Assembly (NCBI GenBank): GCA_947561715.1
Contig: OX387197.1
Coordinates: forward strand, 14,133,001 to 14,197,000
DNA length: 64,000 nucleotides
Reading direction: 5' to 3'
Source: Ascidia mentula
Taxonomy: Eukaryota > Chordata > Ascidiacea > Phlebobranchia > Ascidiidae
In this document: positions 1 through 64,000 of the stretch, piece by piece
Layout: every line of letters starts with the position of its first letter
Numbering within the stretch: position 1 is the stretch's first letter
Position numbers and translations under genes: made by a program
The notes under the pieces: generated by a model
Told to the model about the DNA's origin: nothing
Databases searched by the model: none
The model's input: the letters and a program-made list of their open reading frames with translations, nothing else

Positions 1-78
1 ACGATGGGGAATGTGGTTTGGTCAAAACGCAAGAAGAGTTTTCTTCCAAAACCTTCTGCAAGGAAAAGCTTCTATTAG
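1..78 (+). CDS. 3' end of array gene, copy 0 (partial, last 25 residues)
   Basis: Only the C-terminal end of the last exon is in the window. It begins within a Thr codon, carries Trp at the position equivalent to residue 449, then the basic KRKK stretch, and ends at a TAG at 76-78. It is identical to the ends of most full copies. Its promoter and first seven exons lie outside the window to the left. Confidence 0.6.
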   Translation, partial: TMGNVVWSKRKKSFLPKPSARKSFY

Positions 79-201
79 GAATTCAAAACGGGAAAATAGA
101 AACTGAACGTTTCCGCTTTACCTTTCTAATAGTGCCAAGGCAGTAGCAGCTATATGTCGATTCAATTGTTCAAAAAAAATTTCGCTCGATTTTGCAATGT
201 G

Positions 202-207
202 AATAAA
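202..207 (+). terminator. Poly(A) signal AATAAA, gene copy 0
   Basis: A canonical AATAAA starts 124 nt after the end of the TAG stop and is followed at once by a GT-rich stretch (tagtgtgtattttg), the usual downstream element for cleavage and polyadenylation. This is the first clear signal after the stop and fits a short 3' UTR. Confidence 0.6.
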
Positions 208-1161
208 TTAGTGTGTATTTTGCAAAGTCGTTTGAATCGATGCACTATAACAGTCAATCTCCGCTGACCTATAAGGGCAATTGCGATATCCAAATTCAAT
301 CCTACCTCTCTCCGGCTGGGATACACTGTAGAAAGGAGTTGAATCAATTGGAGAGAGGTGTGTAATAGACATGTATTGGACGACCCCGCAAAAAAAACAA
401 GGTTTTAGGAGTCACGCGTGAAAGGTGGTTACTTTAATGTTGAAATAGGTGCACTTTTATTTTAGAGATTATTGTAAATGTCTAAAATCTGCACTCCTCC
501 TGGTGATAATTGCAAAACCCGACTTCAACTGAAGAATATTAAAAGTTTCTCTTGCAGTTAAAGATATAAAGAATCCAGTATTTCGGACGAATTTTTTTGC
601 ATCAAATCCAAACAGTCAAACATTGCTAAACTCCGACTCCATTCACTCATGGACTTCGGTTTCTGTACAACTCTGACGCTAACGCGAGGCCATCCAAGAA
701 TATGTTTGAATTTTTCGACGTTGGGACCAGTTTGATTGTCCAAGTTTTGACACCAAAAAGCATAAAATTTGACTTTGCAGAAAAAGCAACCTTCGGGTCA
801 CAGACCGGCGCCATTTATTGCAACACCATTTCAATAATGCATGACAAAGCAAATAACACATGTGTATGAAAAAGTCATTCAAAATCGTAGATAACTAAGT
901 AGCTTTCAGGGAACTTTTGTGATGGGTCTTCTATACTTTGACGTGAAAGGTCTAAAAACCTTCCAAAAAGGCCCAAAACAATCTTTACATGGTCATCCAC
1001 TGTCATGAAAAAGGCCTGCCAGTTTGGGTTTCCTGAAAAACAACAACAAAGCATTGACATTAGTACAACTGGAATAATCAATGCACACAGCAGTCGGATC
1101 ATTCCATGTTGAATCACCAAAAAATGACCTTCTATACCCTTACACTTAAAAAGTACAGTGG

Positions 1162-1562
1162 CACAGTCACACATGCCAAATTTTGTTTTTAAAGGTGATA
1201 TTGCAAGGAAATTAAATATACCCCTTCCAACTGTTTGATAAGTTTCAGTTATGAGATGGACCTAAAAATTGAACATCTGATAACCCCCGCACCACGCCCG
1301 ACAAGGTGTATTTCGGGGTCATAAAAAAGATCAATAGGTCATTGCAATAAGGAAACAAAAAGTTAAAAACTAATTACAGATATAGGATCTGTGTTCAATT
1401 CCTTTTCAACCAACACCAATGTTATCAAAATTAACCCAGTAGTTTTCAAAATACAGGGGTTTAAAAATCCCAATTTCGACCAAAAAGGAAAGTTTGAGAG
1501 AAAGTTTGATAACTCCCAAACTACTTTTCACATTGGACTGAAATTTGGCATGTGTGGCTGTG
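1162..1562. repeat. 22-bp inverted repeat pair in the spacer
   Basis: The arms are 1162-1183 and 1541-1562. They match as reverse complements with one mismatch in 22 (core aaatttggcatgtgtg) and are separated by about 357 bp. Similarity outside the arms fades quickly. They could be two opposed copies of a dispersed short repeat or the remnant ends of a small transposon; no target-site duplication was found. The pair is repeated in every complete unit. Confidence 0.5.
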
Positions 1563-2802
1563 TACTCACCCAAAACAGATTACAATGTCTCATAATATGC
1601 GTTATGGCTTTGCTGCTTTAAAAAACACCTAAAACCGTGAAAATGAAAATGTTTTGCCATTTTTGTTAAACTTTGCATAGTTTCTCTACATATAGATGTT
1701 TATAAAAATTTCCTACAGGATGTTTTGTATCTAGTGTTCTCATTTATTCTGTATGTTTGCAGTCATCTTCCGCATTTGCAAACATTTTAGTAGGGCTTTT
1801 TATTGATTGTATTGTTACGAGAGTGATAGTTAAACATTTACTTTTAATATAAATCTCATTGCCAGCAATTTTCGGACAAACATACTATCGGCACTATGTT
1901 TATCGAAAACATACAGTTTCGAAGCATTCAATGCATGGAAGGTAATCATGCAGCAAATGTCCTTTCATAAGATGAGAAAGATCTTTCCTAGAAATTCACC
2001 AACAATGCAGCATGATTTTGAAAATTATATGACTTATGCTGATGATCAGTTTTTCTCCAGATTGAAATCTCAAATCCGCAGTGTTAGAGCCAATCTGTTT
2101 TTATAATTGAGTGCACTTTTTTTAGTAGATCTTACACGTCGTATAGATAAATGCAATTACTGCCAAAAACATTCTGTTGTCAAAGATATTACCTTACCGT
2201 TGTCTCAGTATTTCATTGTCACTGCGGCACACCATAAAACCACTTGAACACAAAATATGGCTGCATTTCATCGAGTTAAAACATTTTCAATCTAATTTCC
2301 TTTCAAAAGTTTACCATTAAGGCACAGAGTATGACTTTACGAACTATTCAAATCACAGTTGTGGGACTGTACTTGCGTCCAGCAGTACAGCAGTAGGCTA
2401 CTGCAGACTCCAGGCTCTTATTGGCATGTGCAATCAAGCGTAACTTTGTGCGTTTTTTTTAACACACGCTTTAAGAAACTATAACGGGTGCATCACATTC
2501 TGCGTCAATTTGCCTTCTTTTATCAGCAGTTGGGATTACTGACTGATTTCATTTTTGAATCAATTAAATCCCCTGGATATTTCTTTTCATTTAATTATAC
2601 TCTGCCACAGTAAGAACTGTCGAGCTTTGCCATTTTTTTCCATGTTTCTCTTGCTTACGCGCCACATGTTGGGATACCAAATAGAAAGTGGTCAAACCAA
2701 GCAGCAAACTTGATTACGAGATATAAACAAACACTTTGCCTGTGTGCACGCACAAAAATCATAAATGCAAACTGAGGGAAAGAAGAAACAAAGACAAGTC
2801 TA

Positions 2803-2810
2803 TGACGTCA
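2803..2810 (+). promoter_or_regulatory. CRE palindrome TGACGTCA, promoter of gene copy 1
   Basis: A full 8-bp cAMP-response element lies 121 bp upstream of the predicted start codon. It is the binding site of CREB/CREM/ATF bZIP factors. Just downstream are an E-box-like CAGCTG and a short upstream ORF. No convincing TATA box sits at the right spacing; TATAAAC at 2722-2728 is upstream of the CRE and is probably not the core promoter. Half-sites (CGTCA) recur in introns 4 and 7. Transcription start and actual factor binding are inferred. Confidence 0.5.
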
Positions 2811-2829
2811 CATTGCTCTCATTAATCCC

Positions 2830-2886
2830 ATGGCAGCTGGCAGTCTAGCAAGCAATTTTTGCTACTTTTTTGTTGTTGATCGCTAA
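2830..2886 (+). CDS. Upstream ORF, 18 codons, in the leader of gene copy 1
   Basis: An ATG in good context (cccATGG) opens an 18-residue frame starting MAAGSLASNF and ending at TAA (2884-2886), 37 nt before the main ATG. It is intact in all complete units and at the right edge (63918-63974); unit 5 has a single Ala-to-Val change. If the transcript begins upstream of it, it would reduce translation of the main ORF. Whether it lies inside the mRNA depends on the unknown transcription start. Confidence 0.3.
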   Translation: MAAGSLASNFCYFFVVDR

Positions 2887-2923
2887 AGAAGTTTGAATTT
2901 TACGGAGTATTTTATCACTGGAA

Positions 2924-5630
2924 ATGGCTTTATTTTGCTTCGGTACAGGTTTCTGCCTGTCAGTAAAAAGGTGAGAGATTTGCATACCGATGTTTTAATT
3001 GCTGTGCTTGTAATATTATAGGGGACATTTATTTGTATGACATATTGAGTTGATACGCAAATTGTTGGCCCCTTTAATTTCAAGCAGTTACGTGCTCGAA
3101 TAAGTATTGTCTTTTGCAGGGCTTGGAAAACCGTGTCGTCGCCTGTACTTGGAAAAGTAAGTCTCATATACTTAATGACTGTGGATTTTAACCCCGCAAA
3201 GGCCTTCAAATTTCTGTGAATACATAATGTTGTGTTCGTTACAACTTCACAAAAAATCTCAATGTAGCAAGTCATGCTCATTCTTGAGTCGTTCATATTT
3301 GAGGTTGCATGCCACCGACAACCCTGCTTATTGGTCATTGTGAAACATCAGTTTCTGTTTTATTTTTTTAATTCGAATGGTTTATCTTTAGAAAACCAGG
3401 TTTGGAGGTGCGACTATCGCGACTGGTAGTGGTCTTCCCAAATGTCGTGTTATCGGTAAGCGTCGGGTGCAACATATCGCATGAACATTGTAAAATCACT
3501 ATGACGTCGTTGTATAGATTTTAAGTTGGAGAACACGAAAAGTTTTGGAAATCGGGAAGCCAGATGCAAGCGGAAGACTTCAAATGCACGTGGTAAGCTC
3601 GGAACGTAGCAAATATCGGTTAAATCAAATTGACTGAATTGAAGGCCGCATACCTGTGTTTCTATTAAAATACGTTTCGCCGGCGGGAAATGCCCACTTT
3701 GTAGTCCTCTGGCGGCACAATATAAAGAGGACGTCACAAAGGAAAGTTTTTCATAATTGTTTGTTGCTGTGTGCTCTGCAATGTACCAAATTAGAGGCCC
3801 ATTAATGAGTCACCAGCCCTAGGAACTGTTTAAACAGAGGATTTTTGGATTTGATTGCCATGCAGGTGCTTATACCGAGTTTTGTTTTACAGGCCAGGTT
3901 GTATCGCAACGATGCGAAAATACACTCCACATCCCGGCGGTTTGGAAGCAACCTTTACCATTGAAGATCTCGATGGTGGTTTTCTTGCAGACCGGACGTG
4001 TATCCCGAAACCCGGCCAAGTTTATTACACCAGAGGTTTTCGGCGAGACAATTTTTGGGATCTTGTCGTTGATCATTAGGTCGCTGGGCCGATGTGGTGA
4101 TGTTGAAAAAGCTGATTGTTGGGCACTAAAACCCGGTGACGGCCCACCAGTCGCTGTTTCTCTTCAAGACAACAACATCATTGACTCGGGGCGACATACA
4201 AAATTATCACCAAGCAAACTCGGCCGCTCCCCTATTACAACAACCTGTTACCCATCTAGCGTAAAGGCTACCAAGTCTTCAGGGTACAAACAACTCAGTC
4301 CACGTGGTTTGATGGAAATCATCAATAGGGTTGGAAACGACTCGAATAATGGCGTGGACGAAGATTACGTGCCATGTGGAGGTCCAACAGAAGCGGATTG
4401 GCTGGAGTATTACAAGGCAGAAAAAGCTGCGCAACGTTCTCACTCCATGCAAAATCTTCGTCGAAAAGTAAAGGAATTTCCTGATCGGTTGATGCACAGT
4501 CACAAAACAGTCGTTCATTTTATCAGGTACCTCGATTGGGGAAACGTAAACAGCATGGCGACGTAACCGGCAAAACACTTGAGAATGGAAAGACTCCAAA
4601 TATCTCCGTCACGTTCGGTAAGCCATAAGCATGGAGGATAATTGTTTGTGTTTTTGCGATGGTAATAAAATTGACCCATTAGCTGCCGTGTTGGCAAAGA
4701 ACAAAATATAACGTCACCGGCGACCTACGGTAAGTTCGAAATTAGAGATAAGGAATAAAAGTGGAATGTACACTTGCTCAAAAATTTCGCTAACGGACGC
4801 ATATCGCTATTTCTATGAAAATCAGTTTCGGTGGTGGGAAATGCCCAACCGTGTAGACCTCTGTCACAATGGAATGAGTACGTCACAGAGCAAACCAGCA
4901 ATGCATGGGGGTCAATTTGACGGTTGAATGAGCGCATATGCGTGTGCTGTGTCATAGCGAACTTTAGGGTGTTTGGGGTAGTTTTAGTGGGGTTTTGGGC
5001 TATTTCAATCAGGTAGTACTTGGTGGTGGGAAACAAGCGGAAGAGTCGTCAGGTGCATTAGGTCACAGGGCCTTGTAAACAGGATTTCTGCAATTTAATA
5101 CACATGTAGGTCCTAAAGTTTTAACCACTGTTTGATACTTTACAGGACAAGTTGTTTCGTCTCCAAATCGAAAACTCGGCCGCTCCCCGATTACAACCAG
5201 TTACACATATGGCGTGAAGACCATGGCGTCTAAACACCTCAGTCCACGCAGTTTGATTGAAATCATCGACAGAGTCGGAAACGAGTCACTCAATGAGGCG
5301 GACGAAGATTACGTACCAGGCCAAGGTCCAACCGAAGAGGATTGGTTGGAATATTACAAGGCAGAAAAAGGTCTGCACTCCTCAAACAACAGAATCGTGG
5401 AGTTGCCGGAAAATAAGTCGATGTTAGAAGGTAATGGAGATGCGCAGAGTCGCACTGAAAGAAGTGTCCGTTTCAAGCTGCCTTCAGGACAAATTGTAAG
5501 CCCTTGCAAGTCTAATTCCCTTCAAGGCTATCATGTCCAGTTTGGCATTAACACGATGGGGAATGTGGTTTGGTCAAAACGCAAGAAGAGTTTTCTTCCA
5601 AAACCTTCTGCAAGGAAAAGCTTCTATTAG
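2924..5630 (+). CDS. Array gene copy 1: unrecognised 8-exon protein, 467 aa, duplicated module
   Basis: Predicted exons are 2924-2970, 3120-3156, 3392-3455, 3518-3592, 3893-4467, 4527-4617, 4700-4729 and 5146-5630. All introns are GT-AG and all phases agree, giving 1404 nt. The start ATG has context gaaATGG and an in-frame TGA 27 bp upstream (2894-2896). No known family is recognised. Residues 1-74 come from four small exons and are basic around 62-69. Residues 183-252 (KLGRSPITT, LSPR, DEDYVP, then GPTEADWLEYYKAEK) recur at 316-381 with moderate divergence. Residues 80-182 have no counterpart in the second half. The C-terminus is basic, with KRKK at 451-454, a possible nuclear signal. SP dipeptides in both modules could be proline-directed kinase sites (inference). 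If the 59-nt intron 5 is retained, translation ends at 4566 after the first module. Weakest points: the exon 7 acceptor and the insert region of exon 5. Variant state: Ser23, Met333, Trp449. Confidence 0.6.
3120..4467 (+). repeat. Proximal half of intragenic duplication (exons 2-5)
   Basis: This block resembles 4527-5400. Exons 2-3 (PVLGK, then GG...T.G.G.P...V.G) resemble exon 6 (PRLGK, then a similar Gly/Thr-rich run). Intron 4 at 3659-3740 resembles intron 7 at 4811-4890 over about 80 bp, including a shared cgggaaatgccca-type core and a CGTCAC. Exon 5 shares both its first codons (GQVVS) and its module with exon 8. Preserved exon order and intron similarity indicate a genomic tandem duplication rather than convergence. 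The proximal exon 5 carries about 100 extra codons after GQVVS. Confidence 0.7.
4527..5630 (+). repeat. Distal half of intragenic duplication (exons 6-8)
   Basis: This is the partner of the proximal block. Here exons 2 and 3 appear as one fused exon, exon 7 is a shortened relative of exon 4, and exon 8 lacks the 100-codon insert but carries a long C-terminal extension (residues about 382-467) absent from exon 5. Differences within the shared module are mostly synonymous in its best conserved part, which supports protein-level selection since the duplication. Confidence 0.65.
4967..4999 (+). other. G-run cluster in intron 7 (possible G-quadruplex)
   Basis: Four runs of three or four G lie on the sense strand at 4967-4969, 4975-4978, 4989-4992 and 4997-4999, with loops of 5, 10 and 4 nt. 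One loop is longer than ideal, so stability is uncertain. Being in an intron on the transcribed-sense strand, it could form in pre-mRNA. It is present in every unit. Confidence 0.35.
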
Positions 5631-5753
5631 GAATTCAAAACGGGAAAATAGAAACTGAACGTTTCCGCTTTACCTTTCTAATAGTGCCAAGGCAGTAGCA
5701 GCTATATGTCGATTCAATTGTTCAAAAAAAATTTCGCTCGATTTTGCAATGTG

Positions 5754-5759
5754 AATAAA
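5754..5759 (+). terminator. Poly(A) signal, gene copy 1
   Basis: AATAAA 124 nt after the TAG at 5628-5630, followed by a GT-rich element. Confidence 0.6.
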
Positions 5760-8355
5760 TTAGTGTGTATTTTGCAAAGTCGTTTGAATCGATGCACTAT
5801 AACAGTCAATCTCCGCTGACCTATAAGGGCAATTGCGATATCCAAATTCAATCCTACCTCTCTCCGGCTGGGATACACTGTAGAAAGGAGTTGAATCAAT
5901 TGGAGAGAGGTGTGTAATAGACATGTATTGGACGACCCCGCAAAAAAAACAAGGTTTTAGGAGTCACGCGTGAAAGGTGGTTACTTTAATGTTGAAATAG
6001 GTGCACTTTTATTTTAGAGATTATTGTAAATGTCTAAAATCTGCACTCCTCCTGGTGATAATTGCAAAACCCGACTTCAACTGAAGAATATTAAAAGTTT
6101 CTCTTGCAGTTAAAGATATAAAGAATCCAGTATTTCGGACGAATTTTTTTGCATCAAATCCAAACAGTCAAACATTGCTAAACTCCGACTCCATTCACTC
6201 GTGGACTTCGGTTTCTGTACAACTCTGACGCTAACGCGAGGCCATCCAAGAATATGTTTGAATTTTTCGACGTTGGGACCAGTTTGATTGTCCAAGTTTT
6301 GACACCAAAAAGCATAAAATTTGACTTTGCAGAAAAAGCAACCTTCGGGTCACAGACCGGCGCCATTTATTGCAACACCATTTCAATAATGCATGACAAA
6401 GCAAATAACACATGTGTATGAAAAAGTCATTCAAAATCGTAGATAACTAAGTAGCTTTCAGGGAACTTTTGTGATGGGTCTTCTATACTTTGACGTGAAA
6501 GGTCTAAAAACCTTCCAAAAAGGCCCAAAACAATCTTTACATGGTCATCCACTGTCATGAAAAAGGCCTGCCAGTTTGGGTTTCCTGAAAAACAACAACA
6601 AAGCATTGACATTAGTACAACTGGAATAATCAATGCACACAGCAGTCGGATCATTCCATGTTGAATCACCAAAAAATGACCTTCTATACCCTTACACTTA
6701 AAAAGTACAGTGGCACAGTCACACATGCCAAATTTTGTTTTTAAAGGTGATATTGCAAGGAAATTAAATATACCCCTTCCAACTGTTTGATAAGTTTCAG
6801 TTATGAGATGGACCTAAAAATTGAACATCTGATAACCCCCGCACCACGCCCGACAAGGTGTATTTCGGGGTCATAAAAAAGATCAATAGGTCATTGCAAT
6901 AAGGAAACAAAAAGTTAAAAACTAATTACAGATATAGGATCTGTGTTCAATTCCTTTTCAACCAACACCAATGTTATCAAAATTAACCCAGTAGTTTTCA
7001 AAATACAGGGGTTTAAAAATCCCAATTTCGACCAAAAAGGAAAGTTTGAGAGAAAGTTTGATAACTCCCAAACTACTTTTCACATTGGACTGAAATTTGG
7101 CATGTGTGGCTGTGTACTCACCCAAAACAGATTACAATGTCTCATAATATGCGTTATGGCTTTGCTGCTTTAAAAAACACCTAAAACCGTGAAAATGAAA
7201 ATGTTTTGCCATTTTTGTTAAACTTTGCATAGTTTCTCTACATATAGATGTTTATAAAATATTTCCTACAGGATTTTTTGTATCTAGTGTTCTCATTTAT
7301 TCTGTATGTTTGCAGTCATCTTCCGCATTTGCAAACATTTTAGTAGGGCTTTTTATTGATTGTATTGTTACGAGAGTGATAGTTAAACATTTACTTTTAA
7401 TATAAATCTCATTGCCAGCAATTTTCGGACAAACATACTATCGGCACTATGTTTATCGAAAACATACAGTTTCGAAGCATTCAATGCATGGAAGGTAATC
7501 ATGCAGCAAATGTCCTTTCATAAGATGAGAAAGATCTTTCCTAGAAATTCACCAACAATGCAGCATGATTTTGAAAATTATATGACTTATGCTGATGATC
7601 AGTTTTTCTCCAGATTGAAATCTCAAATCCGCAGTGTTAGAGCCAATCTGTTTTTATAATTGAGTGCACTTTTTTTAGTAGATCTTACACGTCGTATAGA
7701 TAAATGCAATTACTGCCAAAAACATTCTGTTGTCAAAGATATTACCTTACCGTTGTCTCAGTATTTCATTGTCACTGCGGCACACCATAAAACCACTTGA
7801 ACACAAAATATGGCTGCATTTCATCGAGTTAAAACATTTTCAATCTAATTTCCTTTCAAAAGTTTACCATTAAGGCACAGAGTATGACTTTACGAACTAT
7901 TCAAATCACAGTTGTGGGACTGTACTTGCGTCCAGCAGTACAGCAGTAGGCTACTGCAGACTCCAGGCTCTTATTGGCATGTGCAATCAAGCGTAACTTT
8001 GTGCGTTTTTTTTAACACACGCTTTAAGAAACTATAACGGGTGCATCACATTCTGCGTCAATTTGCCTTCTTTTATCAGCAGTTGGGATTACTGACTGAT
8101 TTCATTTTTGAATCAATTAAATCCCCTGGATATTTCTTTTCATTTAATTATACTCTGCCACAGTAAGAACTGTCGAGCTTTGCCATTTTTTTCCATGTTT
8201 CTCTTGCTTACGCGCCACATGTTGGGATACCAAATAGAAAGTGGTCAAACCAAGCAGCAAACTTGATTACGAGATATAAACAAACACTTTGCCTGTGTGC
8301 ACGCACAAAAATCATAAATGCAAACTGAGGGAAAGAAGAAACAAAGACAAGTCTA

Positions 8356-8363
8356 TGACGTCA
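8356..8363 (+). promoter_or_regulatory. CRE, promoter of gene copy 2
   Basis: TGACGTCA 121 bp upstream of the ATG at 8477; upstream ORF at 8383-8439 intact. Confidence 0.5.
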
Positions 8364-8476
8364 CATTGCTCTCATTAATCCCATGGCAGCTGGCAGTCTA
8401 GCAAGCAATTTTTGCTACTTTTTTGTTGTTGATCGCTAAAGAAGTTTGAATTTTACGGAGTATTTTATCACTGGAA

Positions 8477-11183
8477 ATGGCTTTATTTTGCTTCGGTACA
8501 GGTTTCTGCCTGTCAGTAAAAAGGTGAGAGATTTGCATACCGATGTTTTAATTGCTGTGCTTGTAATATTATAGGGGACATTTATTTGTATGACATATTG
8601 AGTTGATACGCAAATTGTTGGCCCCTTTAATTTCAAGCAGTTACGTGCTCGAATAAGTATTGTCTTTTGCAGGGCTTGGAAAACCGTGTCGTTGCCTGTA
8701 CTTGGAAAAGTAAGTCTCATATACTTAATGACTGTGGATTTTAACCCCGCAAAGGCCTTCAAATTTCTGTGAATACATAATGTTGTGTTCGTTACAACTT
8801 CACAAAAAATCTCAATGTAGCAAGTCATGCTCATTCTTGAGTCGTTCATATTTGAGGTTGCATGCCACCGACAACCCTGCTTATTGGTCATTGTGAAACA
8901 TCAGTTTCTGTTTTATTTTTTTAATTCGAATGGTTTATCTTTAGAAAACCAGGTTTGGAGGTGCGACTATCGCGACTGGTAGTGGTCTTCCCAAATGTCG
9001 TGTTATCGGTAAGCGTCGGGTGCAACATATCGCATGAACATTGTAAAATCACTATGACGTCGTTGTATAGATTTTAAGTTGGAGAACACGAAAAGTTTTG
9101 GAAATCGGGAAGCCAGATGCAAGCGGAAGACTTCAAATGCACGTGGTAAGCTCGGAACGTAGCAAATATCGGTTAAATCAAATTGACTGAATTGAAGGCC
9201 GCATACCTGTGTTTCTATTAAAATACGTTTCGCCGGCGGGAAATGCCCACTTTGTAGTCCTCTGGCGGCACAATATAAAGAGGACGTCACAAAGGAAAGT
9301 TTTTCATAATTGTTTGTTGCTGTGTGCTCTGCAATGTACCAAATTAGAGGCCCATTAATGAGTCACCAGCCCTAGGAACTGTTTAAACAGAGGATTTTTG
9401 GATTTGATTGCCATGCAGGTGCTTATACCGAGTTTTGTTTTACAGGCCAGGTTGTATCGCAACGATGCGAAAATACACTCCACATCCCGGCGGTTTGGAA
9501 GCAACCTTTACCATTGAAGATCTCGATGGTGGTTTTCTTGCAGACCGGACGTGTATCCCGAAACCCGGCCAAGTTTATTACACCAGAGGTTTTCGGCGAG
9601 ACAATTTTTGGGATCTTGTCGTTGATCATTAGGTCGCTGGGCCGATGTGGTGATGTTGAAAAAGCTGATTGTTGGGCACTAAAACCCGGTGACGGCCCAC
9701 CAGTCGCTGTTTCTCTTCAAGACAACAACATCATTGACTCGGGGCGACATACAAAATTATCACCAAGCAAACTCGGCCGCTCCCCTATTACAACAACCTG
9801 TTACCCATCTAGCGTAAAGGCTACCAAGTCTTCAGGGTACAAACAACTCAGTCCACGTGGTTTGATGGAAATCATCAATAGGGTTGGAAACGACTCGAAT
9901 AATGGCGTGGACGAAGATTACGTGCCATGTGGAGGTCCAACAGAAGCGGATTGGCTGGAGTATTACAAGGCAGAAAAAGCTGCGCAACGTTCTCACTCCA
10001 TGCAAAATCTTCGTCGAAAAGTAAAGGAATTTCCTGATCGGTTGATACACAGTCACAAAACAGTCGTTCATTTTATCAGGTACCTCGATTGGGGAAACGT
10101 AAACAGCATGGCGACGTAACCGGCAAAACACTTGAGAATGGAAAGACTCCAAATATCTCCGTCACGTTCGGTAAGCCATAAGCATGGAGGATAATTGTTT
10201 GTGTTTTTGCGATGGTAATAAAATTGACCCATTAGCTGCCGTGTTGGCAAAGAACAAAATATAACGTCACCGGCGACCTACGGTAAGTTCGAAATTAGAG
10301 ATAAGGAATAAAAGTGGAATGTACACTTGCTCAAAAATTTCGCTAACGGACGCATATCGCTATTTCTATGAAAATCAGTTTCGGTGGTGGGAAATGCCCA
10401 ACCGTGTAGACCTCTGTCACAATGGAATGAGTACGTCACAGAGCAAACCAGCAATGCATGGGGGTCAATTTGACGGTTGAATGAGCGCATATGCGTGTGC
10501 TGTGTCATAGCGAACTTTAGGGTGTTTGGGGTAGTTTTAGTGGGGTTTTGGGCTATTTTAATCAGGTAGTACTTGGTGGTGGGAAACAAGCGGAAGAGTC
10601 GTCAGGTGCATTAGGGCACAGGGCCTTGTAAACAGGATTTCTGCAATTTAATACACATGTAGGTCCTAAAGTTTTAACCACTATTTGATACTTTACAGGA
10701 CAAGTTGTTTCGTCTCCAAATCGAAAACTCGGCCGCTCCCCGATTACAACCAGTTACACATATGGCGTGAAGACCATGGCGTCTAAACACCTCAGTCCAC
10801 GCAGTTTGATTGAAATCATCGACAGAGTCGGAAACGAGTCACTCAATGAGGCGGACGAAGATTACGTACCAGGCCAAGGTCCAACCGAAGAGGATTGGTT
10901 GGAATATTACAAGGCAGAAAAAGGTCTGCACTCCTCAAACAACAGAATCGTGGAGTTGCCGGAAAATAAGTCGATGTTAGAAGGTAATGGAGATGCGCAG
11001 AGTCGCACTGAAAGAAGTGTCCGTTTCAAGCTGCCTTCAGGACAAATTGTAAGCCCTTGCAAGTCTAATTCCCTTCAAGGCTATCATGTCCAGTTTGGCA
11101 TTAACACGATGGGGAATGTGGTTTGGTCAAAACGCAAGAAGAGTTTTCTTCCAAAACCTTCTGCAAGGAAAAGCTTCTATTAG
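8477..11183 (+). CDS. Array gene copy 2 (8 exons, Leu23 type)
   Basis: Predicted exons: 8477-8523, 8673-8709, 8945-9008, 9071-9145, 9446-10020, 10080-10170, 10253-10282, 10699-11183. Compared with copy 1 it has Leu instead of Ser at 23; Met333 and Trp449 are kept. In the retained-intron reading it has Ile for Met just after the module (g to a at 10047). Intron 7 has T for C at the site equivalent to 5006. Function unrecognised, as for copy 1; all splice sites are intact. Confidence 0.6.
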
Positions 11184-11306
11184 GAATTCAAAACGGGAAA
11201 ATAGAAACTGAACGTTTCCGCTTTACCTTTCTAATAGTGCCAAGGCAGTAGCAGCTATATGTCGATTCAATTGTTCAAAAAAAATTTCGCTCGATTTTGC
11301 AATGTG

Positions 11307-11312
11307 AATAAA
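11307..11312 (+). terminator. Poly(A) signal, gene copy 2
   Basis: AATAAA 124 nt after the stop ending at 11183. Confidence 0.6.
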
Positions 11313-13907: not shown

Positions 13908-13915
13908 TGACGTCA
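13908..13915 (+). promoter_or_regulatory. CRE, promoter of gene copy 3
   Basis: TGACGTCA 121 bp upstream of the ATG at 14029; upstream ORF at 13935-13991 intact. Confidence 0.5.
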
Positions 13916-22416: not shown

Positions 22417-25010
22417 TTAGTGTGTATTTTGCAAAGTCGTTTGAATCGATGCACTATAACAGTCAATCTCCGCTGACCTATAAGGGCAATTGCGATATCC
22501 AAATTCAATCCTACCTCTCTCCGGCTGGGATACACTGTAGAAAGGAGTTGAATCAATTGGAGAGAGGTGTGTAATAGACATGTATTGGACGACCCCGCAA
22601 AAAAAACAAGGTTTTAGGAGTCACGCGTGAAAGGTGGTTACTTTAATGTTGAAATAGGTGCACTTTTATTTTAGAGATTATTGTAAATGTCTAAAATCTG
22701 CACTCCTCCTGGTGATAATTGCAAAACCCGACTTCAACTGAAGAATATTAAAAGTTTCTCTTGCAGTTAAAGATATAAAGAATCCAGTATTTCGGACGAA
22801 TTTTTTTGCATCAAATCCAAACAGTCAAACATTGCTAAACTCCGACTCCATTCACTCGTGGACTTCGGTTTCTGTACAACTCTGACGCTAACGCGAGGCC
22901 ATCCAAGAATATGTTTGAATTTTTCGACGTTGGGACCAGTTTGATTGTACAAGTTTTGACACCAAAAAGCATAAAATTTGACTTTGCAGAAAAAGCAACC
23001 TTCGGGTCACAGACCGGCGCCATTTATTGCAACACCATTTCAATAATGCATGACAAAGCAAATAACACATGTGTATGAAAAAGTCATTCAAAATCGTAGA
23101 TAACTAAGTAGCTTTCAGGGAACTTTTGTGATGGGTCTTCTATACTTTGACGTGAAAGGTCTAAAAACCTTCCAAAAAGGCCCAAAACAATCTTTACATG
23201 GTCATCCACTGTCATGAAAAAGGCCTGCCAGTTTGGGTTTCCTGAAAAACAACAACAAAGCATTGACATTAGTACAACTGGAATAATCAATGCACACAGC
23301 AGTCGGATCATTCCATGTTGAATCACCAAAAAATGACCTTCTATACCCTTACACTTAAAAAGTACAGTGGCACAGTCACACATGCCAAATTTTGTTTTTA
23401 AAGGTGATATTGCAAGGAAATTAAATATACCCCTTCCAACTGTTTGATAAGTTTCAGTTATGAGATGGACCTAAAAATTGAACATCTGATAACCCCCGCA
23501 CCACGCCCGACAAGGTGTATTTCGGGGTCATAAAAAAGATCAATAGGTCATTGCAATAAGGAAACAAAAAGTTAAAAACTAATTACAGATATAGGATCTG
23601 TGTTCAATTCCTTTTCAACCAACACCAATGTTATCAAAATTAACCCAGTAGTTTTCAAAATACAGGGGTTTAAAAATCCCAATTTCGACCAAAAAGGAAA
23701 GTTTGAGAGAAAGTTTGATAACTCCCAAACTACTTTTCACATTGGACTGAAATTTGGCATGTGTGGCTGTGTACTCACCCAAAACAGATTACAATGTCTC
23801 ATAATATGCGTTATGGCTTTGCTGCTTTAAAAAACACCTAAAACCGTGAAAATGAAAATGTTTTGCCATTTTTGTTAAACTTTGCATAGTTTCTCTACAT
23901 ATAGATGTTTATAAAAATTTCCTACAGGATGTTTTGTATCTAGTGTTCTCATTTATTCTGTATGTTTGCAGTCATCTTCCGCATTTGCAAACATTTTAGT
24001 AGGGCTTTTTATTGATTGTATTGTTACGAGAGTGATAGTTAAACATTTACTTTTAATATAAATCTCATTGCCAGCAATTTTCGGACAAACATACTATCGG
24101 CACTATGTTTATCGAAAACATACAGTTTCAAAGCATTCAATGCATGGAAGGTAATCATGCAGCAAATGTCCTTTCATAAGATGAGAAAGATCTTTCCTAG
24201 AAATTCACCAACAATGCAGCATGATTTTGAAAATTATATGACTTATGCTGATGATCAGTTTTTCTCCAGATTGAAATCTCAAATCCGCAGTGTTAGAGCC
24301 AATCTGTTTTTATAATTGAGTGCACTTTTTTTAGTAGATCTTACACGTCGTATAGATAAATGCAATTACTGCCAAAAACATTCTGTTGTCAAAGATATTA
24401 CCTTACCGTTGTCTCAGTATTTCATTGTCACTGCGGCACACCATAAAACCACTTGAACACAAAATATGGCTGCATTTCATCGAGTTAAAACATTTTCAAT
24501 CTAATTTCCTTTCAAAAGTTTACCATTAAGGCACAGAGTATGACTTTACGAACTATTCAAATCACAGTTGTGGGACTGTACTTGCGTCCAGCAGTACAGC
24601 AGTAGGCTACTGCAGACTCCAGGCTCTTATTGGCATGTGCAATCAAGCGTAACTTTGTGCGTTTTTTTTAACACACGCTTTAAGAAACTATAACGGGTGC
24701 ATCACATTCTGCGTCAATTTGCCTTCTTTTATCAGCAGTTGGGATTACTGACTGATTTCATTTTTGAATCAATTAAATCCCCTGGATATTTCTTTTCATT
24801 TAATTATACTCTGCCACAGTAAGAACTGTCGAGCTTTGCCATTTTTTCCATGTTTCTCTTGCTTACGCGCCACATGTTGGGATACCAAATAGAAAGTGGT
24901 CAAACCAAGCAGCAAACTTGATTACGAGATATAAACAAACACTTTGCCTGTGTGCACGCACAAAAATCATAAATGCTAACTGAGGGAAAGAAGAAACAAA
25001 GACAAGTCTA

Positions 25011-25018
25011 TGACGTCA
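25011..25018 (+). promoter_or_regulatory. CRE, promoter of gene copy 5
   Basis: TGACGTCA is kept 121 bp upstream of the ATG at 25132 although flanking bases differ (24977 and 25056). The upstream ORF at 25038-25094 is intact with one Ala-to-Val change. Confidence 0.5.
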
Positions 25019-25131
25019 CATTGCTCTCATTAATCCCATGGCAGCTGGCAGTCTAGTAAGCAATTTTTGCTACTTTTTTGTTGTTGATCGCTAAAGAAGT
25101 TTGAATTTTACGGAGTATTTTATCACTGGAA

Positions 25132-27852
25132 ATGGCTTTATTTTGCTTCGGTACAGGTTTCTGCCTGTCAGTAAAAAGGTGAGAGATTTGCATACCGATG
25201 TTTTAATTGCTGTGCTTGTAATATTATAGGGGACTTTTATTTGTATGACATATTGAGTTAATACGCAAATTGTTGGCCCCTTTAATTTCAAGCAGTTTCG
25301 TGCTCGAATAAGTATTGTCTTTTGCAGGGCTTGGAAAACCGTGTCGTTGCCTGTACTTGGAAAAGTAAGTCTCATATACTTAATGACTGTGGATTTTAAC
25401 CCCGCAAAGGCCTTCAAATTTCTGTGAATACATAATGTTGTGTTCGTTACAACTTCACAAAAAATCTCAATGTAGCAAGTCATGCTCATTCTTGAGTCGT
25501 TCATATTTGAGGTTGCATGCCACCGACAACCCTGCTTATTGGTCATTGTGAAACATCAGTTTCTGTTTTATTTTTTTAATTCGAATGGTTTGTCTTTAGA
25601 AAACCAGGTTTGGAGGTGCGACTGGTAGTGGTCTTCCCAAATGTCGTGTTATCGGTAAGCGTCGGGTGCAACATATCGCATGAACATTGTAAAATCACTA
25701 TGACGTCGTTGTATAGATTTTAAGTTGGAGAACACGGAAAGTTTTGGAAATCGGGAAGCCAGATGCAAGCGGAAGACTTCAAATGCACGTGGTAAGCTCG
25801 GAACGTAGCAAATATCGGTTAAATCAAATTGACTGAATTGAAGGCCGCATCCCTGTGTTTCTATTAAAATACGTTTCGCCGGAGGGAAATGCCCACTTTG
25901 TAGTCCTCTGGCGGCACAATATAAAGAGGACGTCACAAAGGAAAGTTTTTCATAGTTGTTTGTTGCTGTGTGCTCTGCAATGTACCTGCAATTACTTTTT
26001 CCTCCTGTTGACAAATTAGAGGCCCATTAATGAGTCACCAGCCCTAGGAACTGTTTAAACAGAGGATATTTGGATTTGATTGCCATGCAGGTACTTATAC
26101 CGAGTTTTGTTTTACAGGCCAGGTTGTATCGCAACGATGCGAAAATACACTCCACATCCCGGCGGTTTGGAAGCAACCTTTACCATTGAAGATCTCGATG
26201 GTGGTTTTCTTGCAGACCGGACGTGTATCCCGAAACCCGGCCAAGTTTATTACACCAGAGGTTTTCGGCGAGACAATTTTTGGGATCTTGTCGTTGATCA
26301 TTAGGTCGCTGGGCCGATGTGGTGATGTTGAAAAAGCTGATTGTTGGGCACTAAAACCCGGTGACGGCCCACCAGTCGCTGTTTCTCTTCAAGACAACAA
26401 CATCATTGACTCGGAGCGACATACAAAATTATCACCAAGCAAACTCGGCCGCTCCCCTATTACAACAACCTGTTACCCATCTAGCGTAAAGGCTACCAAG
26501 TCTTCAGGGTACAAACAACTCAGTCCACGTGGTTTGATGGAAATCATCAATAGGGTTGGAAACGACTCGAATAATGGCGTGGACGAAGATTACGTGCCAT
26601 GTGGAGGTCCAACAGAAGCGGATTGGCTGGAGTATTACAAGGCAGAAAAAGCTGCGCAACGTTCTCACTCCATGCAAAATCTTCGTCAAAAAGTAAAGGA
26701 ATTTCCTGATCGGTTGATGCACAGTCACAAAACAGTCGTTCATTTTATCAGGTACCTCGATTGGGGAAACGTAAACAGCATGGCGACGTAACCGGCAAAA
26801 CACTTGAGAATGGAAAGACAAATATCTCCGTCACGTTCGGAAAGCCATAAGCATGGAGGATAATTGTTTGTGTTTTTGCGATGGTAATAAAATTGACCCA
26901 TTAGCTGCCGTGTTGGCAAAGAACAAAATATAACGTCACCGGCGACCTACGGTAAGTTCGAAATTAGAGATAAGGAATAAAAGTGGAATGTACACTTGCT
27001 CAAAAATTTCGCTAACGGACGCATATCGCTATTTCTATGAAAATCAGTTTCGGTGGTGGGAAATGCCCAACCGTGTAGACCTCTGTCACAATGGAATGAG
27101 TACGTCACAGAGCAAACCAGCAATGCATGGGGGTCAATTTGACGGTTGAATGAGCGCATATGCGTGTGCTGTGTCATAGCGAACTTTAGGGTGTTTGGGG
27201 TAGTTTTAGTGGGGTTTTGGGCTATTTCAATCAGGTAGTACTTGGTGGTGGGAAACAAGCGGAAGAGTCGTCAGGTGCATTAGGGCACAGGGCCTTGTAA
27301 ACAGGATTTCTGCAATTTAATACACATGTAGGTCCTAAAGTTTTAACCACTGTTTGATACTTTACAGGACAAGTTGTTTCGTCTCCAAATCGAAAACTCG
27401 GCCGCTCCCCGATTACAACCAGTTACACATATGGCGTGAAGACCAGGGCGTCTAAACACCTCAGTCCACGCAGTTTGATTGAAATCATCGACAGAGTCGG
27501 AAACGAGTCACTCAATGAGGCGGACGAAGATTACGTACCAGGCCAAGGTCCAACCGAAGAGGATTGGTTGGAATATTACAAGGCAGAAAAAGGTCTGCAC
27601 TCCTCAAACAACAGAATCGTGGAGTTGCCGGAAAATAAGTCGATGTTAGAAGGTAATGGAGATGCGCAGAGTCGCACTGAAAGAAGTGTCCGTTTCAAGC
27701 TGCCTTCAGGACAAATTGTAAGCCCTTGCAAGTCTAATTCCCTTCAAGGCTATCATGTCCAGTTTGGCATTAACACGATGGGGAATGTGGTTTGGTCAAA
27801 ACGCAAGAAGAGTTTTCTTCCAAAACCTTCTGCAAGGAAAAGCTTCTATTAG
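25132..27852 (+). pseudogene. Array gene copy 5: diverged, predicted exon 6 donor lost
   Basis: Predicted exons: 25132-25178, 25328-25364, 25600-25654, 25717-25791, 26118-26692, 26752-26839, 26922-26951, 27368-27852. Compared with copy 1 it lacks three residues around 35-38 (9-bp in-frame deletion), has Lys57 to Glu, Gly177 to Glu and Arg265 to Gln, lacks one Pro in exon 6 (3-bp in-frame deletion), and has Leu23 and Arg333. The exon 6 donor GT reads GA (26840-26841), so under this model splicing to exon 7 fails and translation would stop three codons into the intron, leaving only the first module. Both exonic indels keep the frame, so the copy probably stayed coding for much of its history. 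It may instead be a functional short form, or use another donor; calling it a pseudogene is tentative. Confidence 0.45.
25987..26012 (+). other. 26-bp segment unique to copy 5 in intron 4
   Basis: Present only between the sequences tgtacc and aaattagagg, which are adjacent in all other units. It includes a pyrimidine-rich run (ttactttttcctcctg). It may be an insertion here or ancestral sequence deleted from the others; it lies about 105 bp before the exon 5 acceptor. Confidence 0.85.
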
Positions 27853-27975
27853 GAATTCAAAACGGGAAAATAGAAACTGAACGTTTCCGCTTTACCTTTC
27901 TAATAGTGCCAAGGCAGTAGCAGCTATATGTCGATTCAATTGTTCAAAAAAAATTTCGCTCGATTTTGCAATGTG

Positions 27976-27981
27976 AATAAA
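27976..27981 (+). terminator. Poly(A) signal, gene copy 5
   Basis: AATAAA 124 nt after the stop ending at 27852. Confidence 0.55.
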
Positions 27982-30576
27982 TTAGTGTGTATTTTGCAAA
28001 GTCGTTTGAATCGATGCACTATAACAGTCAATCTCCGCTGACCTATAAGGGCAATTGCGATATCCAAATTCAATCCTACCTCTCTCCGGCTGGGATACAC
28101 TGTAGAAAGGAGTTGAATCAATTGGAGAGAGGTGTGTAATAGACATGTATTGGACGACCCCGCAAAAAAAACAAGGTTTTAGGAGTCACGCGTGAAAGGT
28201 GGTTACTTTAATGTTGAAATAGGTGCACTTTTATTTTAGAGATTATTGTAAATGTCTAAAATCTGCACTCCTCCTGGTGATAATTGCAAAACCCGACTTC
28301 AACTGAAGAATATTAAAAGTTTCTCTTGCAGTTAAAGATATAAAGAATCCAGTATTTCGGACGAATTTTTTTGCATCAAATCCAAACAGTCAAACATTGC
28401 TAAACTCCGACTCCATTCACTCGTGGACTTCGGTTTCTGTACAACTCTGACGCTAACGCGAGGCCATCCAAGAATATGTTTGAATTTTTCGACGTTGGGA
28501 CCAGTTTGATTGTCCAAGTTTTGACACCAAAAAGCATAAAATTTGACTTTGCAGAAAAAGCAACCTTCGGGTCACAGACCGGCGCCATTTATTGCAACAC
28601 CATTTCAATAATGCATGACAAAGCAAATAACACATGTGTATGAAAAAGTCATTCAAAATCGTAGATAACTAAGTAGCTTTCAGGGAACTTTTGTGATGGG
28701 TCTTCTATACTTTGACGTGAAAGGTCTAAAAACCTTCCAAAAAGGCCCAAAACAATCTTTACATGGTCATCCACTGTCATGAAAAAGGCCTGCCAGTTTG
28801 GGTTTCCTGAAAAACAACAACAAAGCATTGACATTAGTACAACTGGAATAATCAATGCACACAGCAGTCGGATCATTCCATGTTGAATCACCAAAAAATG
28901 ACCTTCTATACCCTTACACTTAAAAAGTACAGTGGCACAGTCACACATGCCAAATTTTGTTTTTAAAGGTGATATTGCAAGGAAATTAAATATACCCCCT
29001 CCAACTGTTTGATAAGTTTCAGTTATGAGATGGACCTAAAAATTGAACATCTGATAACCCCCGCACCACGCCCGACAAGGTGTATTTCGGGGTCATAAAA
29101 AAGATCAATAGGTCATTGCAATAAGGAAACAAAAAGTTAAAAACTAATTACAGATATAGGATCTGTGTTCAATTCCTTTTCAACCAACACCAATGTTATC
29201 AAAATTAACCCAGTAGTTTTCAAAATACAGGGGTTTAAAAATCCCAATTTCGACCAAAAAGGAAAGTTTGAGAGAAAGTTTGATAACTCCCAAACTACTT
29301 TTCACATTGGACTGAAATTTGGCATGTGTGGCTGTGTACTCACCCAAAACAGATTACAATGTCTCATAATATGCGTTATGGCTTTGCTGCTTTAAAAAAC
29401 ACCTAAAACCGTGAAAATGAAAATGTTTTGCCATTTTTGTTAAACTTTGCATAGTTTCTCTACATATAGATGTTTATAAACATTTCCTACAGGATGTTTT
29501 GTATCTAGTGTTCTCATTTATTCTGTATGTTTGCAGTCATCTTCCGCATTTGCAAACATTTTAGTAGGGCTTTTTATTGATTGTATTGTTACGAGAGTGA
29601 TAGTTAAACATTTACTTTTAATATAAATCTCATTGCCAGCAATTTTCGGACAAACATACTATCGGCACTATGTTTATCGAAAACATACAGTTTCGAAGCA
29701 TTCAATGCATGGAAGGTAATCATGCAGCAAATGTCCTTTCATAAGATGAGAAAGATCTTTCCTAGAAATTCACCAACAATGCAGCATGATTTTGAAAATT
29801 ATATGACTTATGCTGATGATCAGTTTTTCTCCAGATTGAAATCTCAAATCCGCAGTGTTAGAGCCAATCTGTTTTTATAATTGAGTGCACTTTTTTTAGT
29901 AGATCTTACACGTCGTATAGATAAATGCAATTACTGCCAAAAACATTCTGTTGTCAAAGATATTACCTTACCGTTGTCTCAGTATTTCATTGTCACTGCG
30001 GCACACCATAAAACCACTTGAACACAAAATATGGCTGCATTTCATCGAGTTAAAACATTTTCAATCTAATTTCCTTTCAAAAGTTTACCATTAAGGCACA
30101 GAGTATGACTTTACGAACTATTCAAATCACAGTTGTGGGACTGTACTTGCGTCCAGCAGTACAGCAGTAGGCTACTGCAGACTCCAGGCTCTTATTGGCA
30201 TGTGCAATCAAGCGTAACTTTGTGCGTTTTTTTTAACACACGCTTTAAGAAACTATAACGGGTGCATCACATTCTGCGTCAATTTGCCTTCTTTTATCAG
30301 CAGTTGGGATTACTGACTGATTTCATTTTTGAATCAATTAAATCCCCTGGATATTTCTTTTCATTTAATTATACTCTGCCACAGTAAGAACTGTCGAGCT
30401 TTGCCATTTTTTTCCATGTTTCTCTTGCTTACGCGCCACATGTTGGGATACCAAATAGAAAGTGGTCAAACCAAGCAGCAAACTTGATTACGAGATATAA
30501 ACAAACACTTTGCCTGTGTGCACGCACAAAAATCATAAATGCAAACTGAGGGAAAGAAGAAACAAAGACAAGTCTA

Positions 30577-50184: not shown

Positions 50185-50190
50185 AATAAA
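50185..50190 (+). terminator. Poly(A) signal, gene copy 9
   Basis: AATAAA 124 nt after the stop ending at 50061. Confidence 0.6.
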
Positions 50191-52786: not shown

Positions 52787-52794
52787 TGACGTCA
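52787..52794 (+). promoter_or_regulatory. CRE, promoter of gene copy 10
   Basis: TGACGTCA 121 bp upstream of the ATG at 52908; upstream ORF at 52814-52870 intact. Confidence 0.5.
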
Positions 52795-52907
52795 CATTGC
52801 TCTCATTAATCCCATGGCAGCTGGCAGTCTAGCAAGCAATTTTTGCTACTTTTTTGTTGTTGATCGCTAAAGAAGTTTGAATTTTACGGAGTATTTTATC
52901 ACTGGAA

Positions 52908-55614: not shown

Positions 55615-55737
55615 GAATTCAAAACGGGAAAATAGAAACTGAACGTTTCCGCTTTACCTTTCTAATAGTGCCAAGGCAGTAGCAGCTATATGTCGATTCA
55701 ATTGTTCAAAAAAAATTTCGCTCGATTTTGCAATGTG

Positions 55738-55743
55738 AATAAA
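55738..55743 (+). terminator. Poly(A) signal, gene copy 10
   Basis: AATAAA 124 nt after the stop ending at 55614. Confidence 0.6.
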
Positions 55744-58338: not shown

Positions 58339-58346
58339 TGACGTCA
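58339..58346 (+). promoter_or_regulatory. CRE, promoter of gene copy 11
   Basis: TGACGTCA 121 bp upstream of the ATG at 58460; upstream ORF at 58366-58422 intact. Confidence 0.5.
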
Positions 58347-58459
58347 CATTGCTCTCATTAATCCCATGGCAGCTGGCAGTCTAGCAAGCAATTTTTGCTA
58401 CTTTTTTGTTGTTGATCGCTAAAGAAGTTTGAATTTTACGGAGTATTTTATCACTGGAA

Positions 58460-61166: not shown

Positions 61167-61289
61167 GAATTCAAAACGGGAAAATAGAAACTGAACGTTT
61201 CCGCTTTACCTTTCTAATAGTGCCAAGGCAGTAGCAGCTATATGTCGATTCAATTGTTCAAAAAAAATTTCGCTCGATTTTGCAATGTG

Positions 61290-61295
61290 AATAAA
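61290..61295 (+). terminator. Poly(A) signal, gene copy 11
   Basis: AATAAA 124 nt after the stop ending at 61166. Confidence 0.6.
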
Positions 61296-63890
61296 TTAGT
61301 GTGTATTTTGCAAAGTCGTTTGAATCGATGCACTATAACAGTCAATCTCCGCTGACCTATAAGGGCAATTGCGATATCCAAATTCAATCCTACCTCTCTC
61401 CGGCTGGGATACACTGTAGAAAGGAGTTGAATCAATTGGAGAGAGGTGTGTAATAGACATGTATTGGACGACCCCGCAAAAAAAACAAGGTTTTAGGAGT
61501 CACGCGTGAAAGGTGGTTACTTTAATGTTGAAATAGGTGCACTTTTATTTTAGAGATTATTGTAAATGTCTAAAATCTGCACTCCTCCTGGTGATAATTG
61601 CAAAACCCGACTTCAACTGAAGAATATTAAAAGTTTCTCTTGCAGTTAAAGATATAAAGAATCCAGTATTTCGGACGAATTTTTTTGCATCAAATCCAAA
61701 CAGTCAAACATTGCTAAACTCCGACTCCATTCACTCGTGGACTTCGGTTTCTGTACAACTCTGACGCTAACGCGAGGCCATCCAAGAATATGTTTGAATT
61801 TTTCGACGTTGGGACCAGTTTGATTGTCCAAGTTTTGACACCAAAAAGCATAAAATTTGACTTTGCAGAAAAAGCAACCTTCGGGTCACAGACCGGCGCC
61901 ATTTATTGCAACACCATTTCAATAATGCATGACAAAGCAAATAACACATGTGTATGAAAAAGTCATTCAAAATCGTAGATAACTAAGTAGCTTTCAGGGA
62001 ACTTTTGTGATGGGTCTTCTATACTTTGACGTGAAAGGTCTAAAAACCTTCCAAAAAGGCCCAAAACAATCTTTACATGGTCATCCACTGTCATGAAAAA
62101 GGCCTGCCAGTTTGGGTTTCCTGAAAAACAACAACAAAGCATTGACATTAGTACAACTGGAATAATCAATGCACACAGCAGTCGGATCATTCCATGTTGA
62201 ATCACCAAAAAATGACCTTCTATACCCTTACACTTAAAAAGTACAGTGGCACAGTCACACATGCCAAATTTTGTTTTTAAAGGTGATATTGCAAGGAAAT
62301 TAAATATACCCCTTCCAACTGTTTGATAAGTTTCAGTTATGAGATGGACCTAAAAATTGAACATCTGATAACCCCCGCACCACGCCCGACAAGGTGTATT
62401 TCGGGGTCATAAAAAAGATCAATAGGTCATTGCAATAAGGAAACAAAAAGTTAAAAACTAATTACAGATATAGGATCTGTGTTCAATTCCTTTTCAACCA
62501 ACACCAATGTTATCAAAATTAACCCAGTAGTTTTCAAAATACAGGGGTTTAAAAATCCCAATTTCGACCAAAAAGGAAAGTTTGAGAGAAAGTTTGATAA
62601 CTCCCAAACTACTTTTCACATTGGACTGAAATTTGGCATGTGTGGCTGTGTACTCACCCAAAACAGATTACAATGTCTCATAATATGCGTTATGGCTTTG
62701 CTGCTTTAAAAAACACCTAAAACCGTGAAAATGAAAATGTTTTGCCATTTTTGTTAAACTTTGCATAGTTTCTCTACATATAGATGTTTATAAAAATTTC
62801 CTACAGGATGTTTTGTATCTAGTGTTCTCATTTATTCTGTATGTTTGCAGTCATCTTCCGCATTTGCAAACATTTTAGTAGGGCTTTTTATTGATTGTAT
62901 TGTTACGAGAGTGATAGTTAAACATTTACTTTTAATATAAATCTCATTGCCAGCAATTTTCGGACAAACATACTATCGGCACTATGTTTATCGAAAACAT
63001 ACAGTTTCGAAGCATTCAATGCATGGAAGGTAATCATGCAGCAAATGTCCTTTCATAAGATGAGAAAGATCTTTCCTAGAAATTCACCAACAATGCAGCA
63101 TGATTTTGAAAATTATATGACTTATGCTGATGATCAGTTTTTCTCCAGATTGAAATCTCAAATCCGCAGTGTTAGAGCCAATCTGTTTTTATAATTGAGT
63201 GCACTTTTTTTAGTAGATCTTACACGTCGTATAGATAAATGCAATTACTGCCAAAAACATTCTGTTGTCAAAGATATTACCTTACCGTTGTCTCAGTATT
63301 TCATTGTCACTGCGGCACACCATAAAACCACTTGAACACAAAATATGGCTGCATTTCATCGAGTTAAAACATTTTCAATCTAATTTCCTTTCAAAAGTTT
63401 ACCATTAAGGCACAGAGTATGACTTTACGAACTATTCAAATCACAGTTGTGGGACTGTACTTGCGTCCAGCAGTACAGCAGTAGGCTACTGCAGACTCCA
63501 GGCTCTTATTGGCATGTGCAATCAAGCGTAACTTTGTGCGTTTTTTTTAACACACGCTTTAAGAAACTATAACGGGTGCATCACATTCTGCGTCAATTTG
63601 CCTTCTTTTATCAGCAGTTGGGATTACTGACTGATTTCATTTTTGAATCAATTAAATCCCCTGGATATTTCTTTTCATTTAATTATACTCTGCCACAGTA
63701 AGAACTGTCGAGCTTTGCCATTTTTTTCCATGTTTCTCTTGCTTACGCGCCACATGTTGGGATACCAAATAGAAAGTGGTCAAACCAAGCAGCAAACTTG
63801 ATTACGAGATATAAACAAACACTTTGCCTGTGTGCACGCACAAAAATCATAAATGCAAACTGAGGGAAAGAAGAAACAAAGACAAGTCTA

Positions 63891-63898
63891 TGACGTCA
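63891..63898 (+). promoter_or_regulatory. CRE, promoter of gene copy 12 (gene outside the window)
   Basis: TGACGTCA followed by the complete upstream ORF (63918-63974); the coding region itself begins beyond the window edge. Confidence 0.5.
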
Positions 63899-64000
63899 CA
63901 TTGCTCTCATTAATCCCATGGCAGCTGGCAGTCTAGCAAGCAATTTTTGCTACTTTTTTGTTGTTGATCGCTAAAGAAGTTTGAATTTTACGGAGTATTT

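Follow-up and report, generated by a model that had tools for sequence, protein, structure and literature searches.

A large coding macrosatellite carrying one spliced gene per unit on chromosome 1 of the ascidian Ascidia mentula

The best-known large arrays of a single gene are those of human macrosatellites and of sex chromosomes. For instance, RS447/USP17 at human 4p16.1 consists of tandem protein-coding units of 4.7 kb, with 20-103 units in 37 people, and D4Z4/DUX4, CT47, PRR20 (FLJ40296) and MSR5p have units of 3.3-6.6 kb with an encoded product, CT47 being normally restricted to the germ line, as stated in the relevant parts of PMC3599962. Here we describe a similar array in the ascidian Ascidia mentula, found in a 64,000-nucleotide stretch of chromosome 1 (the window), which is filled by units of about 5.55 kb, each carrying one spliced gene. 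The product of RS447/USP17 is a deubiquitinating enzyme, whereas the A. mentula array features about 138 units of a spliced gene from an unnamed family. DUX4 is a retrogene according to the portion of PMC5849414 that describes it; in contrast, the array gene has introns in our model. A 12-kb repeat array on human chromosome 8 is comparable in scale to the 0.8 Mb of the A. mentula array, but differs in unit and animal.

In the mouse, two loci of one family, Slx on the X and Sly on the Y chromosome, are both amplified, and their proteins compete for a partner, as PMC7743899 summarizes. Two loci of one family are amplified in A. mentula as well, but they lie on chromosomes 1 and 4; no sex chromosomes are listed for the species, and the two loci are not an X/Y pair.

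The array on chromosome 1 is genuine and, for a coding macrosatellite, unusually large. Coding macrosatellites as a kind are already known (PMC3599962 and PMC2588610, in the parts relevant here); as far as our searches show, the gene family and the host are new to this kind. No title or abstract opening among the literature matches listed describes the present array. With an array of 0.8 Mb on one chromosome of a compact 197-Mb genome, and a few tandem copies of a larger relative on another, A. mentula allows dosage, conflict and neutral unequal exchange to be distinguished, and provides a clean test case for strong single-gene amplification in animals.

Extent and composition of the array

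The genome searched comprises 195,842,439 bases in 79 contigs; the published kaAscMent1.1 assembly is reported to have 196,975,169 bp in 95 scaffolds (PMC11109543, assembly figures), so that small scaffolds are probably missing from the genome searched. Chromosomes 1 and 4 are referred to below as C1 and C67, respectively. C67 measures 22,722,200 bases, in line with the 22.72 Mb listed for chromosome 4 in PMC11109543. Translated with the ascidian code, the mitochondrial COX1 keeps its conserved glycines. Each kb of the window has 83-100% of its 15-mers repeated, the dominant offsets being 5552 and 5553 bp, and twelve anchors are spaced by 5552-5565 bp, which gives about 11.5 units. A preliminary description of the window as a tandem array of a 5.55-kb unit in at least 11.5 copies is therefore borne out.

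The same description had the array continuing past both edges of the window, which is correct but understates its size. A unit-specific 35-mer, searched genome-wide with up to two mismatches, matched at 134 forward and 2 reverse places, and the reversed-pattern control at none. A census of the last exon, based on its C-terminal 86 residues (144 of 144 candidates scored), identified 138 copies, all on C1, where one copy is split over two rows and the matches thus number 139; five weak rows fall on C67. The copies span C1 13,726,709-14,524,492, about 0.8 Mb, at 49-52% of the length of the chromosome. BLAST pieces of up to 1,500 bp (unit comparison) or, in another comparison, up to 1,000 bp, as well as two pieces lying inside the window, were removed before copies were counted.

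Besides one spliced gene and a poly(A) signal, each unit read includes spacer sequence of about 2.7 kb. The units, 5552-5601 bp in length, are arranged head to tail, and exceed the 1 kb above which tandem units are classed as macrosatellites. Near-uniformity, as first claimed, holds only approximately: a 5564-bp variant is present in the window, units beyond 14.40 Mb are up to about 50 bp longer, reaching about 5600 bp, and inverted copies are found at the right edge. Marker spacing is also irregular at two places inside the array, C1:13842773 to 13854757 (11,984 bp) and C1:13932480 to 13937101 (4,621 bp), where units are disturbed or shortened. The features of the window are collected in Table 1.

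Table 1. Features of the array unit and their positions in the window.
Feature	Position in window	Strand	Basis or remark
Tandem array piece	1..64000 (C1:14133001-14197000)	+	about 11.5 of about 138 units
Reference unit, 5552 bp	2001..7552	+	unit comparison
Further unit starts (about)	7554, 13106, 18658, 24210, 29775, 35327, 40880, 46432, 51985, 57537	+	
Variant unit, 5564 bp, 98.9% identical to reference	24210..29773	+	in-frame deletions of 9 bp and 3 bp, insertion of 26 bp in an intron, exon 6 donor GT to GA
TGACGTCA site (CRE-like)	2803..2810	+	about 115 bp before ATG, one per unit
Exon 1 (ATG)	2924..2970	+	model; splice sites and frame only
Exon 2	3120..3156	+	model; splice sites and frame only
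Exon 3	3392..3455	+	model; donor GT is TT at 2 of 100 marker places listed
Exon 4	3518..3592	+	model; splice sites and frame only
Exon 5, one partial domain of about 120 residues and SPRxL...DWLEYYKAEK motif	3893..4467	+	aligned to four chromosome 4 domains and the chromosome 4 C-terminal exon
Exon 6	4527..4617	+	model; phase matches exons 5 and 8
Possible exon 7, 30 nt, optional	4700..4729	+	open in frame with both neighbours; no other support
Exon 8 with stop; second SPRxL...DWLEYYKAEK motif, RSVRF, basic C-terminus	5146..5630	+	model, chromosome 4 alignment, census
AATAAA poly(A) signal	5754..5759	+	sequence
Foldback element in spacer, 401 bp	6714..7114	.	22-nt inverted arms, 357 nt apart

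The unit gene and its relatives on chromosome 4

The gene model consists of seven exons encoding 457 residues, plus an optional exon of 30 nt. That each unit holds one spliced gene had been proposed at the outset, and is upheld: relatives on chromosome 4 confirm the frames of exons 5 and 8, the other exons being predicted from splice sites and frame. The unit had also been credited with its own promoter and poly(A) signal. The latter is present in the form of AATAAA; in place of a promoter, only the upstream TGACGTCA was found, a site resembling a cAMP response element (CRE). The window contains 12 perfect TGACGTCA sites against 0.85 expected by shuffling, a count in which the 12 are not independent, as the units are copies. 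Exon 8 features a motif, RSVRF, of the RVxF type, which we assume to be a predicted PP1-docking-like site, and RxL is presumably a predicted cyclin docking motif.

Sixty-two copies or part copies were examined, 42 of which cover the whole coding sequence. The reading frame, start, stop and splice sites are all intact in 35 of these 42, and AATAAA and the upstream TGACGTCA are each found in 42 of 42. Of the seven damaged copies, four carry a common stop at codon 363, one has lost a splice donor and two are frame-shifted at the right edge. The window has 11 gene copies, 10 of them intact; in the other, that of the variant unit, the donor is altered. Exon 8 was scored over a larger set, in which the whole 160-residue exon was used as query and 150 of 284 candidates were scored (11 rows correspond to the related exon 5); 115 of 135 full-length copies are stop-free.

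As first noted, the gene is neither ribosomal DNA nor a histone gene. No Rfam family matched at gathering score in window positions 1-11200, the window contains no tRNA gene, and none of three gene pieces matched a Pfam family, histone families included, at cut-off. A match of one gene piece to DUF1985 (E 0.041, 14.3 bits against a cut-off of 35.1) was dismissed as chance. The search of exon 8 against PDB yielded no match, and Pfam and PDB searches of the chromosome 4 relative returned nothing useful: four PDB rows at E 0.63-1.2, and Chromo_PTM at E 0.19 in one of five domain rows, were considered chance matches. A scan of viral contigs for the domain profile turned up 46 pattern matches, none of them a relative. 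Without a Pfam or PDB match in the searches made, the protein family would be a new domain family.

The relatives are found at C67:9.937-10.067 Mb, where five clusters (20 rows) each contain four domain copies of about 120 residues in the same order. We take the clusters as five putative tandem genes. In the C-terminal exon searched, the other four are 97-98% identical in protein to the query. The comparison with the array is based on one of the five, most of which was read, without its 5' end. W, QTG and FxG-type positions are common to its domains and array exon 5. Of the three domain exons read, one starts with EHAV and two with GQV, which also opens exons 5 and 8 of the array; judged by frame, the three domain exons share their starting phase. 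The last chromosome 4 exon carries SPRRLM...GGPTDEDWLEYFKAERA and KRSVRFTLPSGQVVAPCK, which match array exons 5 and 8. An intron replacing the first part of exon 5 was ruled out because this segment is the domain shared with chromosome 4. Intron pieces at 3644-3696 and 4795-4847, copied along with the exon, show 79% identity, and the exon duplicate 81%.

Where the chromosome 4 gene read has four domains and six TQT motifs, the model of the array gene shows one partial domain and no TQT motif, and contains the C-terminal motif twice. TQT is described in the literature consulted as an LC8-binding motif. One or two TQT motifs follow each domain of the chromosome 4 gene. The array gene is a shortened version of the chromosome 4 gene. 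The family was seen only on C1 and C67 among the candidates scored, which number 144 of 144 (139 rows on C1, 5 on C67) for the last exon, 150 of 168 (130 on C1 and 20 on C67, i.e., five genes by four domains) for the domain, and 150 of 284 (all on C1) and 124 of 434 (C1 and C67) for further profiles. No other relatives were found among these candidates, from which a very diverged relative could escape.

Divergence within the family was analysed by the Nei-Gojobori method on untrimmed alignments. The ratio of nonsynonymous to synonymous changes (omega) is 0.22 in the duplicated 44-codon motif, 0.39 between exons 5 and 8 (89 codons) and 0.48-0.54 between array and chromosome 4 exons, where the synonymous distance (dS) is near 1. 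These values point to old purifying selection on the predicted protein.

Variation among copies and competing explanations

The reference unit was chosen from the window and is thus central. Units within the window are 98.9-100% identical to it; the values are 98.4-99.5% for units at 14.30-14.36 Mb and 96.9-99.1% for those beyond 14.40 Mb. Since a central reference was used, the gene regions of units were also compared pairwise. Mean pairwise identity is 99.75% for 19 central units, 99.43% for 10 units at 14.29-14.40 Mb and 99.24% for 10 units beyond 14.40 Mb. Eight central units differ at 0-7 positions per 5,001 bp, as in homogenized arrays, and several units are identical across 5,001 bp; the 42 gene copies read comprise 30 distinct sequences.

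Larger blocks may have been copied as well. Copies with a stop reappear at a lag of exactly 143,745 bp (14,055,491/14,199,236; 14,099,906/14,243,651; 14,116,227/14,259,972), which suggests that blocks of about 26 units were duplicated, or that a path was repeated by the assembler. A second lag, 27,836 bp, was observed in the right part of the array (14320793/14348629). Besides inverted copies, the right edge holds a palindrome, with arms of 2,374 bp that are 99.4% alike and lie 479 bp apart (C1:14,506,303-14,508,676 and 14,509,156-14,511,528). By position, the arms correspond to the upstream region and first exons of the gene, and the palindrome could give a hairpin RNA.

These data are best explained by a coding macrosatellite of a new gene family that has grown by exchange and provides a high dose of a small regulatory protein, a reading to which, taken as a whole, we assign a probability of roughly 0.6. 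Growth and homogenization would result from unequal exchange between sister units, with additional duplications of larger blocks. The protein supplied in high dose would be small, regulatory and probably mostly unstructured, and may retain the C-terminal part of the chromosome 4 scaffold, with its PP1-docking-like and RxL-like motifs, but not the LC8-binding part. Since copies are many, single broken copies are tolerated and spread. Dosage-dependent, germline ampliconic and conflict genes had been put forward at the outset as candidate classes.

Several points weigh against this reading. The gene model derives from sequence and homology, splice sites and frame being the whole support for exons 1-4 and 6, and high dosage is something we infer. 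Exon 8 contains a stop in 20 of the 135 full-length copies (18 TAG, 2 TAA), and three further copies are damaged. Copy number comes from a single HiFi assembly, in which the 12-20-kb fragments cover only 2-3 units. Three full units read on the left side are 99.74% alike, matching the centre, against 99.24% in the outer right units; raised diversity is thus established for the right end only. Lastly, no purifying selection is evident between present copies; together with the stops in exon 8, this weakens the case for current function.

The point on selection follows from a count of variants among array copies: 86 are nonsynonymous, 26 synonymous and 2 stops, to be compared with shares of 78.1, 30.3 and 5.6 under the spectrum of non-coding changes. 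The proportion of nonsynonymous variants does not differ from the neutral share of 72% (p = 0.29), and variable sites number 110 of 1371 in coding and 293 of 4151 in non-coding sequence. The present differences within the array look neutral, which fits either a redundant, quickly homogenized array or one that has lately lost its function. Positive selection, which an early ratio of 63 nonsynonymous to 13 synonymous variants had suggested, vanished when more copies and a null derived from the spacer mutation spectrum were used (86:26, p 0.29).

The strongest rival is a neutral or structural satellite in which the gene is a mostly silent passenger; it would spread by unequal exchange, perhaps owing to its place near the middle of chromosome 1, possibly next to a centromere. 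Variation among copies fits this explanation, since the ratio of nonsynonymous to synonymous variants agrees with neutrality and variability is as high at coding as at non-coding sites. The stops in exon 8, the nonsense allele at codon 363 in 4 of the 42 genes read and the central position of the array on chromosome 1 also agree with it. In contrast, the frame has stayed open through a long divergence from chromosome 4, at an omega of about 0.5. The preservation of 35 of 42 genes, and of the poly(A) signal and TGACGTCA in all 42, likewise speaks against a passenger, although recent homogenization could explain the recent part of it. On balance we regard a purely neutral array as unlikely, though deserving of serious attention.

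A somewhat weaker case can be made for genetic conflict, by analogy with Slx/Sly: the truncated array gene may be a decoy or a driver in competition with the chromosome 4 scaffold, both loci having been amplified in response. Both loci of the family are indeed tandemly amplified, with about 138 units on chromosome 1 and five genes on chromosome 4 (97-98% alike over the exon searched); the predicted array product keeps the C-terminal motifs and lacks the TQT motifs, and the right-edge palindrome could make hairpin RNA against the gene. Nevertheless, ordinary recombination also leads to two loci being amplified, and the palindrome may be no more than the scar of an inversion. Furthermore, no sex chromosomes are listed for the species in the assembly section of PMC11109543. 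A more specific scenario, which we consider improbable, is an autosomal arms race in a hermaphrodite, where the array product would be a dose-dependent competitor free of LC8 sites, the chromosome 4 gene would have been amplified to five copies in answer, and hairpin RNA from the palindrome would restrain the array. Because no sex chromosomes are listed and ascidians are mostly hermaphrodites, comparing male and female read depth is probably unsuitable here.

That a single small locus was inflated by the assembler is very unlikely, because 30 of the 42 gene copies differ, inverted copies are present and non-array sequence lies on both sides of the array; the identity of some units over 5,001 bp and the exact 143,745-bp recurrence, which is longer than any read and may be a duplicated path, are set against HiFi coverage of 74x in 12-20-kb fragments and a quality value (QV) of 64.9, as given in the assembly data of PMC11109543. 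The exact copy count could be wrong.

Flanking sequences and the spacer element

Pfam matches were obtained for four of the eight flank pieces scanned. A piece of the left flank matches DUF5641 (E 2.1e-12), which we take to be part of a BEL/Pao-type retroelement. In the right flank, GPS and trypsin scored above cut-off, and GAIN and LDL-receptor class A gave weak matches below it; these matches correspond to ordinary genes.

The arm of the foldback element in the spacer matches the genome at 144 forward and 149 reverse places. By subtraction, a few arms lie outside the array; two of the 100 places listed, C69:16882452 and C69:16979540, carry exact foldback arms.

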